Part shown: piece after piece, positions 30,729 through 33,834 of the stretch
Position numbering within the stretch: the first letter of the stretch is position 1
Layout: the number at the start of each line of letters is the position of its first letter
Source: Phycisphaerales bacterium
GTDB taxonomy: Bacteria > Planctomycetota > Phycisphaerae > Phycisphaerales > SM1A02
Assembly (NCBI GenBank): GCA_009691725.1
Contig: SIAP01000003.1
Coordinates: forward strand, 62,001-126,000
Direction: 5' to 3'
Length of the DNA: 64,000 nt
Made by a program: the position numbers and the translations under genes
The notes under the pieces: generated by a model
The model's database searches: none
What the model was told of the DNA's origin: nothing
The model's input: the letters and a program-made list of their open reading frames with translations, nothing else

Positions 30729-30768
30729 TGTTGTAAAGTGTTGCATTGTGGGGCACAGTGGGTATAGT
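30729..30768 (+). promoter_or_regulatory. MraZ-type operator (four pentamers, 10-bp period) over the mraZ promoter
   Basis: TGTTG (30729), TGTTG (30739), TGGGG (30749) and TGGGT (30759) start at exact 10-bp intervals. MraZ is known to bind TGGGN repeats spaced by 5 nt, which gives the same period. A -10 box TATAGT (30763-30768) overlaps the last repeat, with TTGCAT (30741-30746) as a weak -35 inside the second. Binding would block the promoter, consistent with autorepression. Confidence 0.75.
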
Positions 30769-30795: not shown

Positions 30796-31266
30796 ATGCT
30801 CTTCCTCGGCGAATACGAACACAGTCTCGACTCGAAACAACGTCTCGCCATACCAAGCGAGTTGCGCGAAGTGCTCAATCCAGCGGTCAACGGGGACTCG
30901 TTTGTTGCAGTCCCGGGCGCGGACGAGGTACTCACACTCTGGCCCAACGGAACGTTCGAGAAATTGGCGATGGATCATGGCGGGTCGTTGATCGGCGACG
31001 AAGTGCTTCGGCAATTCGAGCGATCTTTCTTCAGTCAAGCAGCACGCTGTCAACTGGATTCTGCCGGTCGCGTGCGCATTCCGGATCGACTGCTCACGCG
31101 CTTTGGATTGGCGGGTGCAGTCGTCATCTTGGGAGTTCGAGACCACTTGGAGTTGATCGCGTCTGCGCGGTGGAAGAGTCAGCAGAAGGAACGGAATTCT
31201 TCTGCGGGCGAACTTTTTCGTCAGGCCAATCAGATTATGAAATCACGATCGGGTGGGGCGCGGTGA
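30796..31266 (+). CDS. mraZ: transcriptional regulator MraZ
   Basis: A 156-residue DNA-binding protein with two SpoVT/AbrB-like halves. The first is MLFLGEYEHSLDSKQRLAIP at the N-terminus, and the second is CQLDSAGRVRIPDRLLTRFGL near residue 80. The D-x-x-x-R motif of each half is kept. MraZ normally heads the division and cell-wall (dcw) cluster and represses it. Here no rsmH, ftsL or mur gene follows; a structured non-coding region and csrA come next. The start at 30796 follows a promoter with a repeat operator, which supports autoregulation. The stop shares bases with an ATG of a 29-codon frame (TGATG at 31264), not called as a gene. Confidence 0.95.
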   Translation: MLFLGEYEHSLDSKQRLAIPSELREVLNPAVNGDSFVAVPGADEVLTLWPNGTFEKLAMDHGGSLIGDEVLRQFERSFFSQAARCQLDSAGRVRIPDRLLTRFGLAGAVVILGVRDHLELIASARWKSQQKERNSSAGELFRQANQIMKSRSGGAR

Positions 31267-31365
31267 TGGATCGCCGCAACCACTTCGACGCCGCTTCGCC
31301 ACGGATGGCGTCGCGCAGAGACAACCCTCGGACCCCGCACGGACGCGGCTTCTGAGCAGACAACA

Positions 31366-31498
31366 GGGTCAAGGATGACCCAAATCGTTCGCACGGATAA
31401 GCCATGGATGGCAGGCTGTGCGAATAGTCGGGCGGAATCACTTCCGCTCGATTATCAACCTCTTGCCCCTGCGTCACTGGCCCGACGCAGGGGTTTTT
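31366..31498 (+). ncRNA. candidate CsrA-binding RNA, three hairpins plus terminator
   Basis: Hairpin A, 31366-31381: 6-bp stem, loop AGGA. Hairpin B, 31388-31424: 7-bp outer stem TTCGCAC/GTGCGAA, with ACGGA at its start and an inner stem GCC/GGC around the loop ATGGAT (31404-31409). Hairpin C, 31430-31449: 8-bp stem with loop TCAC. The terminator ends the region. CsrA family proteins recognise A-N-GGA in hairpin loops; AAGGA, ACGGA and ATGGA are all here, and csrA lies 290 bp downstream. It could be a separate sRNA or the 3' UTR of mraZ; no internal promoter was found. The RNA role is inference. Confidence 0.4.
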
Positions 31499-31500
31499 GT
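31466..31500 (+). terminator. intrinsic terminator after mraZ / candidate RNA
   Basis: CCCCTGCGTC (31466-31475) and GACGCAGGGG (31484-31493) form a perfect 10-bp stem with an 8-nt loop, followed by TTTTTG. A strong rho-independent terminator on the plus strand. Confidence 0.93.
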
Positions 31501-31635
31501 TTGCATTTCCGGCATTGATGGCTGATTCTGCAAAAAAGATGGCATTCTCAGCTGGCACAGTTGGGAGATCGACCCAGCGTGAGTCGCATCCCATAACGGG
31601 GTATTTCGTCAAATTGTGATTTGGGAAGAATGATG

Positions 31636-31787
31636 CGACCGATCGAGCGATACCCTTCAAGAAGGTCAGCCGCTCGGTCGATGAATGTCATCCGAGTATT
31701 CGCAGGGAGGACGCATGGTGCGTCCAAGGCGAGCTGAGCAAGTCGGTGGGCGACGCCCCACCGTATCAAGGGCAGGAGGTCCGCAGC
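31636..31787 (+). promoter_or_regulatory. structured csrA leader with three hairpins and a CsrA-like ribosome binding site
   Basis: Structure 1, 31636-31680: CGACCG/CGGTCG and AGCG/CGCT stems around an inner CCTTC/GAAGG hairpin. Structure 2, 31709-31725: perfect 7-bp stem GGACGCA/TGCGTCC. Structure 3, 31745-31762: GGTGGG/CCCACC. The Shine-Dalgarno AGGAGGT (31774-31780) lies 7 bases before ATG and carries AGGA, the core CsrA site, so autorepression of csrA is plausible. The 138 bases before (31499-31635) hold no recognisable gene. Confidence 0.5.
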
Positions 31788-32021
31788 ATGTTGGTCATCA
31801 CCAGACGCGAAGGCGAAGAAGTCGTAATCGGAAACCCCGCTTCACCAATCGGGATCGTCCGTATCGCATCGATCAAGGGGGACCGCGTGCGGCTTGCTTT
31901 TGAGTTCCCTCGCGAGGTTGCGGTGCATCGCAAGGAAGTCGCTGAGCAGATTATTGCCGGCGCGAATGACCCAAGCAAGAATGTCATCGGTCAGATCCGT
32001 CCGGCCGAAGGCGGTGCTTGA
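31788..32021 (+). CDS. csrA: carbon storage regulator CsrA
   Basis: A 77-residue RNA-binding protein. It begins MLVITRREGEEVVIGN, the family start, and has the IKGDRVRLAFEFPREVAVHRKEV core with the conserved Arg of VAVHR needed for RNA binding. CsrA dimers block or expose ribosome binding sites of target mRNAs. The tail beyond residue 60 (ANDPSKNVIGQIRPAEGG) is longer than in E. coli (61 aa). A strong Shine-Dalgarno and a hairpin-rich leader precede it. fliW, the usual antagonist outside gamma-proteobacteria, is not in the window. Confidence 0.96.
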   Translation: MLVITRREGEEVVIGNPASPIGIVRIASIKGDRVRLAFEFPREVAVHRKEVAEQIIAGANDPSKNVIGQIRPAEGGA

Positions 32022-32369: not shown

Positions 32370-32403
32370 GATGAGTCTAATCAGGTTTTCTTACACTCAC
32401 GCG

Positions 32404-33834
32404 ATGCAGGTCAGCGTTGCTTCGTACCTTTGGACTGTCGCGGTGGTCATCCTCTCGTGTGGATGTGCAGCCACTCCCGCCGGTGATCCACTGCAATCCC
32501 TGAGTCGTACGGATCTCGTGCCAGCACGCCAGATTGCGGCGATGAGATTGCTCGACGCGGATCCATCCTCTGCCGAGTACCTCAAGGCACTGCGCAAGAT
32601 GATCGTGCAACCCGGGTTCTCTCTTGAACTTCGCAATGAAGCGTGGGAGCGTCTCCTCAAGAGTGATCCAGTTGGGTTGAGGACATCGCTCGAACTCAAC
32701 CTACCGCGCATGATGATCTACGAGTGGCGGCGCGAGGTCTGCGTGCGGCTCGGTCGGCTCGGATGGAAAGACATGACACCAACCCTCGTTCGTGCGTGGG
32801 CGGTTCCGGTGATCGCGTACGGCAACGATTTGTGGCAGCGTCCCGAATACGACGCACTGGTGGCGCTCTGGGGGAAAGAGCGCGTTCCCCAAGTCTTGTA
32901 TGAATTGTTCCTCAAGAGTGATCCGATCAAGGAAGCGAATCTGCGGAGTCGCTGCTGGGAACTCTTGCTCGCCACTGGGCAACGCGATCGCATTCTTGCG
33001 CTGCTCGCTGATGAGCAAACCGCGACGACGGATTCGTTCATTCTGGACATGCGCAGATCGGCGAGCGATTTGGGAATCATCCCTCGCAATCGCGAGGAAA
33101 TCTTGTGGATCCGCGCGCTGCGAACTCCAGCGCATCGAGCACTGTGGGATGCCGCCCGTGCGGGCGTGGCGCAACTGCCAGCAGATGTGCGAGCATCGCT
33201 CGAACCGCGCGACATTGCAATCATCGTGGCGGCCGCGAAGTACAGCCCGCACTTGCTTGGGCGATCCCGTGATGATCTCTTTGCCGAGGTGAGCACCCGT
33301 TTGCGATCGGAAGGAACTCGTCGATACAGCGCATCGTTCGAGGGGTATGGCACGCAGCTTGCAGAGACACCTCGCGCGCACGAGAGCGAGATGCGGTGGG
33401 GGGATTGTGCGGCAGTCCTCATCGCGCTCTCGGCGCTCGAAGAGGGCACCATTCGATCGCACCTCTTTGACATTGCGGATCGCGATCAGTCCGATCGGCT
33501 GACCGAATATGGCGGACTGCTGCGACTGGACGAACACGGGAGATACGAACTGGTGGAGTTCAGTCCGCAGTCGCGCGGGAGCGATGTGCGTTACGAGGCA
33601 TCGCAGAAGATGTTTGATGCGGGGTATGACGCGCTCTTCCATTTTCACAACCACGCGCAGGCGTATGACAATCAGCGGTACGCCGGTCCTCATCTCGGCG
33701 ACTTCCATTACGCAGACAACACGGGAGTCAATGCACTCGTGTTCACATTCGTCGATCACAACACACTCAATGCAGACTTCTACCGGCACGGTCAGGTGGT
33801 GATCGATCTGGGAACAGTCAAACGACAGGAGTAA
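32404..33834 (+). CDS. lipoprotein with a C-terminal JAB/JAMM-like histidine cluster, unknown function
   Basis: A 476-residue lipoprotein with lipobox ILSCGC (Cys20 from this start). Residues 30-260 are helical and may form repeat-like helix pairs (ARQIAAMRLLD, LRNEAWERLLK, SRCWELLLATG). The C-terminal 110 residues contain ALFHFHNHAQ near 412, then YAGPHLGDFHYA and FTFVDHNTLNADFYRH. An H-x-H plus downstream Asp layout recalls JAMM metalloproteases, but the conserved Ser is not present, so this is only a suggestion. The stop overlaps the dapF start (TAATG). An ATG 33 bp upstream (32371) is possible but would lengthen the signal. Confidence 0.6.
   Translation: MQVSVASYLWTVAVVILSCGCAATPAGDPLQSLSRTDLVPARQIAAMRLLDADPSSAEYLKALRKMIVQPGFSLELRNEAWERLLKSDPVGLRTSLELNLPRMMIYEWRREVCVRLGRLGWKDMTPTLVRAWAVPVIAYGNDLWQRPEYDALVALWGKERVPQVLYELFLKSDPIKEANLRSRCWELLLATGQRDRILALLADEQTATTDSFILDMRRSASDLGIIPRNREEILWIRALRTPAHRALWDAARAGVAQLPADVRASLEPRDIAIIVAAAKYSPHLLGRSRDDLFAEVSTRLRSEGTRRYSASFEGYGTQLAETPRAHESEMRWGDCAAVLIALSALEEGTIRSHLFDIADRDQSDRLTEYGGLLRLDEHGRYELVEFSPQSRGSDVRYEASQKMFDAGYDALFHFHNHAQAYDNQRYAGPHLGDFHYADNTGVNALVFTFVDHNTLNADFYRHGQVVIDLGTVKRQE

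Follow-up and report, generated by a model that had tools for sequence, protein, structure and literature searches.

In many phyla CsrA serves as a global regulator, and the RNAs that antagonise it are known mainly from gammaproteobacteria; FliW is a protein antagonist of CsrA. A genome survey proposed that RNA antagonists driven by BarA-UvrY are rare or absent outside the gammaproteobacteria, and listed the Planctomycetes among the groups that may rely on FliW (PMC4682653). Our own search of the literature on CsrA in Planctomycetes or Planctomycetota, with most subscription papers outside its reach, found nothing relevant. A 64,000-nt stretch of DNA from a freshwater planctomycete of the Phycisphaerales (the whole stretch analysed here, “the window”) raises the following question: what is the role of a row of hairpins with GGA loops that stands between mraZ and csrA, on the strand of both genes? 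The initial annotation had suggested a CsrA-titrating RNA with a gene of its own beside csrA.

Results

The hairpin array occupies positions 31254-31498 of the plus strand, opening within the final codons of mraZ, at its stop codon, and ending in an intrinsic terminator. Of the six hairpins that precede the terminator, five present ANGGA in the loop and one does not. Hairpin H1 (31254-31283, with a 7-bp core at 31260-31277) carries its ANGGA at 31266-31270, such that the A of the motif is the final base of the mraZ stop codon TGA (31264-31266). H2 (31292-31315) and H3 (31327-31356) hold the motif at 31301-31305 and 31339-31343, respectively. H4 (31366-31381) has the form GGGTCA-AGGA-TGACCC, with an AGGA tetraloop (ANGGA at 31371-31375), and in H5 (31387-31425) the motif at 31404-31408 belongs to the loop of an inner stem, GCC-ATGGAT-GGC (loop 31404-31409). 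The terminator (31465-31498, stem 31465-31494) consists of 11 pairs and a T run and is conserved in the genus. Folding of 31340-31510 yields -81.2 kcal/mol, compared with -54.5 +/- 4.1 kcal/mol in shuffled sequences (z = -6.5; 0 of 200 shuffles).

H4, the H5 loop and the terminator are found exactly where the initial annotation had placed them. The three hairpins that it described are present and well folded, but the third (H6, 31425-31454) has its GGA paired in the stem and shows no conserved GGA loop; an ACGGA noted at 31393-31397 exists, but is partly paired and not conserved in congeners. The boundaries had been drawn too narrowly, as H1 (core), H2 and H3 lie upstream of them and are among the best conserved hairpins.

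A DNA similarity search of plasmids gave no match. None of the Rfam models for CsrB, RsmX, RsmY/RsmZ and RsmW reached its gathering cut-off for the region; the best score was 18.1 bits for RsmW against a cut-off of 52 (E = 1.1). The array fits no Rfam family and resembles known Csr sponges.

Within the genus the array is present in nearly all genomes. BLASTN with the region found matches in 17 of the 18 other genomes of the genus (E <= 1.5e-5) and a convincing score in none of 22 other genomes of the family and order, and a covariance model recovered the array from 18 of 19 genus genomes, including all 14 of high quality, each time as a single copy. The neighbourhood, flavin reductase - mraZ - array - csrA - nifU, does not vary. 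In an alignment of 16 species the ANGGA motifs of H1-H4 are invariant except for the N, and the stems around them covary: 15 pairs show double changes, with both-side changes in 5 of 9 pairs of H2, 8 of 13 of H3 and 2 of 7 of H4. The 60 double-change cells observed compare with 23.7 +/- 3.8 after shuffling (0 of 500 shuffles as high) and with 8-21 in slid-partner controls; 88.9% of the cells in the test were paired. This test covers H1-H4, H5 and H6 having been left out because MAFFT misaligns H5. The comparison with relatives that the initial annotation had proposed thus came out in favour of its idea, with the array retained, its stems changed in a compensatory way and its GGA loops kept.

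The stop codon context TGA-N-GGA stands at the aligned position in 17 of 18 congeners, and in L012 a TGACGGA follows 9 nt later. A counterpart of H5 with AGGA or ANGGA, in a loop of variable length, occurs in most congeners, and the arrays of L012 and L013 contain additional hairpins, i.e. single hairpins turn over. The stems of the array are unrelated to each other, and the indels in the alignment are non-triplet.

The terminator loop ACTGGCCC (31476-31483) differs in just one of 18 species, by a single A to G change, and is identical in the other 17, which exceeds the needs of a terminator. The terminator 18-mer was tried as a tag for a wider search and rejected: in the class sample exact matches were confined to the genus, and across unrelated genomes many chance matches were obtained.

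For the order as a whole, ANGGA-loop hairpins were counted in 424-nt segments at the mraZ stop codon of 61 loci from 31 genera. All 138 such hairpins in these regions lie on the sense strand, with 0 on the antisense strand. With permuted motifs the sense-strand count in the same regions fell to 3-17, and dinucleotide shuffles gave about 0.07 ANGGA hairpins per region. When averaged by genus, sense exceeds antisense in 27 of 31 genera and falls below it in none (Wilcoxon p = 2.6e-6). Four genera and several single genomes of the order have no array hairpins at all, and families f4, f5 and f6 include genomes with just 0-1 strict hairpins after mraZ. The array is therefore common, though not universal, across the order.

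Outside the order the signal is weaker (32 sense versus 2 antisense hairpins in 51 regions). In other classes of the phylum, 25 regions hold just 7 sense hairpins against 2 antisense ones, and a phylum-wide spread of dense arrays was rejected on these numbers. Among class-level families, f9, f14, f15 and f20 are enriched for hairpins and f16 is not; class-level regions were not counted as evidence because many of them also contain coding sequence. In two class-level relatives (L304 and L310) the ORF that follows mraZ is of rsmH size, and one GGA hairpin lies close to its start, about 210 nt behind mraZ; this hairpin may be a site of translational control by CsrA.

The array belongs to mraZ rather than to csrA. 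Two layouts exist in the family. In the layout of the window mraZ is followed by the array and then by csrA, all on one strand; in the other, csrA faces mraZ and the array sits directly behind mraZ, on the mraZ strand, and was not found in the region upstream of csrA. The covariance model built from the window genus alone recovers arrays of the second layout (L248, L241, L253 and L358) on the mraZ strand, which is why they appear homologous. In whole-genome searches under strict filters the model gave few matches outside the genus because hairpin number and stems vary, and the search at the level of the locus is more sensitive. No csrA adjoining mraZ was seen in the order's other families, and ANGGA hairpins are still often found behind mraZ there. 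The array thus sits behind mraZ in both layouts, with H1 overlapping the stop codon in the genus. The idea that the array generally goes with csrA was considered and rejected, since csrA flips or moves while the array stays with mraZ; the neighbourhood of csrA that the initial annotation had stressed is specific to certain lineages. A simple sigma-70 scan from the region upstream of mraZ to csrA returned no promoter, a result of little weight, since the scan likewise failed to pick up the promoter on which mraZ itself must depend. In place of the stand-alone gene of 130-150 nt that had been envisaged, the location argues that the array is probably part of the mraZ transcript.

The mraZ gene itself (30796-31266, plus strand, 156 aa) matches PF02381 in frame (G000:C13:92799-93203), and its product is 68-92% identical to those of congeners. 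Its coding sequence includes a 9-bp hairpin (31182-31205) whose loop reads ACGGAA and which has similar counterparts in one or a few congeners only. Upstream of mraZ, at 30738-30762 on the plus strand, are putative MraZ boxes in which GTG recurs every 10 nt (GTGTTGCATT GTGGGGCACA GTGGG), a spacing taken to be that of MraZ boxes in line with a secondary description. TGGG-N6-TGGG precedes mraZ in 46 of 67 loci, compared with 2.5% of background segments. According to PMC8475190, which cites Eraso et al. 2014, MraZ represses its own operon via MraZ boxes.

In the window genome rsmH is found on another contig (G000:C45:18012-18908) than mraZ (C13), and the mraZ-rsmH pair is split in the genus; since rsmH is the usual neighbour of mraZ, mraZ therefore lies apart from the dcw cluster.

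A possible partner is encoded nearby. The csrA gene (31788-32021, plus strand; PF02599, 55.6 bits) encodes a divergent paralogue of 77 aa, the single CsrA of the window genome (one match in the genome search). CsrA of this divergent type is conserved through most of the order, and csrA genes occur through the order. The window protein aligns with solved CsrA/RsmE structures over the RNA-contact segments, which matter for RNA binding, and keeps MLxxTRR and VHR(K/E)E. FliW was not found in the window genome; it is present in most genomes of the family and missing where the divergent CsrA stands alone, e.g. in G015, G019, G023 and G051. Most genomes of the family (f1) have two CsrAs, a divergent and a canonical one, and the canonical one has a FliW match no more than a few hundred bases away on its contig. 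In the window lineage canonical CsrA and FliW have been lost or were never there. Family f5 is without the divergent CsrA, yet some of its members retain the array, and there the partner would have to be a canonical CsrA.

The 5' leader of csrA (31590-31787) is highly conserved in the genus. It contains an ANGGA at 31704-31708 of the plus strand, and alignment A4 shows an invariant TCGCA-N-GGA and an AGGAGG Shine-Dalgarno sequence, which suggest a possible site of CsrA autoregulation. Further downstream, an ORF of 487 aa (32371-33834) has no Pfam match and is conserved beside nifU and csrA in the genus.

Discussion

Our analysis provides strong support for the idea of a CsrA-titrating RNA, in the form of invariant ANGGA loops on covarying stems. 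The features by which a Csr sponge would be recognised from sequence are found together, namely several ANGGA loops, compensatory changes, a CsrA gene in the same genome and a 3' end defined by a terminator. We regard it as probable that the array acts as a CsrA-titrating RNA, and that an mraZ transcript autoregulated by MraZ carries it as part of its 3' UTR or gives rise to it by processing of that UTR.

According to this scenario, for which we infer co-transcription with mraZ, repression by MraZ, CsrA binding and titration, the 3' UTR of the mraZ transcript, or a small RNA cut from it, would carry four to seven CsrA sites on hairpins, the row being closed by the intrinsic terminator. MraZ itself would probably repress the mraZ promoter through the MraZ boxes. 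Whenever the promoter fires, the trailing RNA would bind several CsrA dimers and CsrA-repressed mRNAs would be set free, so that CsrA activity would be tied to MraZ. A more far-reaching proposal, that mraZ, detached from the dcw cluster, has become the head of a sponge unit replacing both FliW and the BarA-UvrY/CsrB circuit, has in our judgement an even chance of being right.

The main rival is a role of CsrA in cis: binding to the array would protect or destabilise the mraZ mRNA or cover its stop codon, and mraZ would be a Csr target. The inclusion of the stop codon in the first CsrA-type site in all congeners (at the aligned position in 17 of 18) and the attachment of the array to mraZ irrespective of the orientation of csrA would both be explained in this way. 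However, four to seven strong sites, kept on separate stable hairpins of which single ones turn over (the extra hairpins of L012 and L013), exceed what one cis site needs and are sponge-like. We therefore hold this explanation to be unlikely, although it is the best of the alternatives.

More improbable still is a structured 3' UTR in which another protein or, in an anti-Shine-Dalgarno-like manner, the ribosome reads the ANGGA loops, CsrA being uninvolved. GGA does also belong to Shine-Dalgarno sequences, but the signal here is A-N-GGA with a free N and mostly C or U after GGA, which is the CsrA consensus and not GGAGG. Permutations of the motif such as T.GGA are far less frequent, and the presence of csrA genes throughout the order also argues against it. 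An attenuator or leader RNA that controls csrA via read-through from mraZ could be imagined from the genus alone, where csrA follows on the same strand with a strong terminator in between, but the persistence of the array where csrA is convergent or not adjacent makes this very improbable. Hairpins form easily in G+C-rich intergenic DNA, and chance-like stems were also found here, but an origin of the array by chance, from a mobile palindromic repeat or as a short coding region can be dismissed almost entirely given the strand bias of 138 to 0, the shuffles near 0.07 per region, the compensatory stem changes, one copy per genome with mutually unrelated stems, and the non-triplet indels.

If the titration scenario is true, Planctomycetota would gain their first reported Csr sponge, and a near-universal cell-division regulator would be tied to the Csr system. 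The array offers a candidate function for a stand-alone mraZ and a testable connection from MraZ to Csr. That an ANGGA array with covarying stems follows mraZ across the order is contrary to the expectation from the genome survey (PMC4682653).

Two known systems concern mraZ or CsrA antagonism at more distance. UpsM of Rhodobacter is an abundant small RNA that also derives from the mraZ transcript; it is a 5' leader, Hfq-linked and located before an intact dcw cluster, and the available text of PMC5089854 does not report a role as CsrA sponge. In Campylobacter, according to PMC4894983, flagellin mRNA, i.e. an mRNA and not a dedicated small RNA, affects CsrA activity, and the CsrA-FliW network uses FliW without antagonist small RNAs, whereas the window genome is without a detected FliW.

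The closest precedents are CsrB/RsmZ by function and RsmU by origin from a 3' UTR. CsrB/CsrC and RsmX/RsmY/RsmZ of gammaproteobacteria likewise carry many short ANGGA hairpins with CsrA encoded in the same genome (PMC7366521), and by analogy a titration of CsrA dimers of the CsrB/RsmZ type is presumed for the array, too. In contrast to them, the array has no Rfam homology, occurs in Planctomycetota and is attached to the 3' end of mraZ; CsrB and RsmZ are independent genes under BarA-UvrY/GacA, and the array has MraZ boxes upstream instead. RsmU of Xanthomonas is an RsmA-binding small RNA with three or four GGA motifs that is processed from the 3' UTR of an mRNA (PMC7694677), and so sets a precedent for a Csr sponge with the origin proposed here. 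RsmU belongs to comEA, is restricted to its genus and bound RsmA even after mutation of its GGA motifs (PMC7694677), whereas the array has mraZ as its host gene, extends through most of an order and, in the window genus, starts at the stop codon itself.
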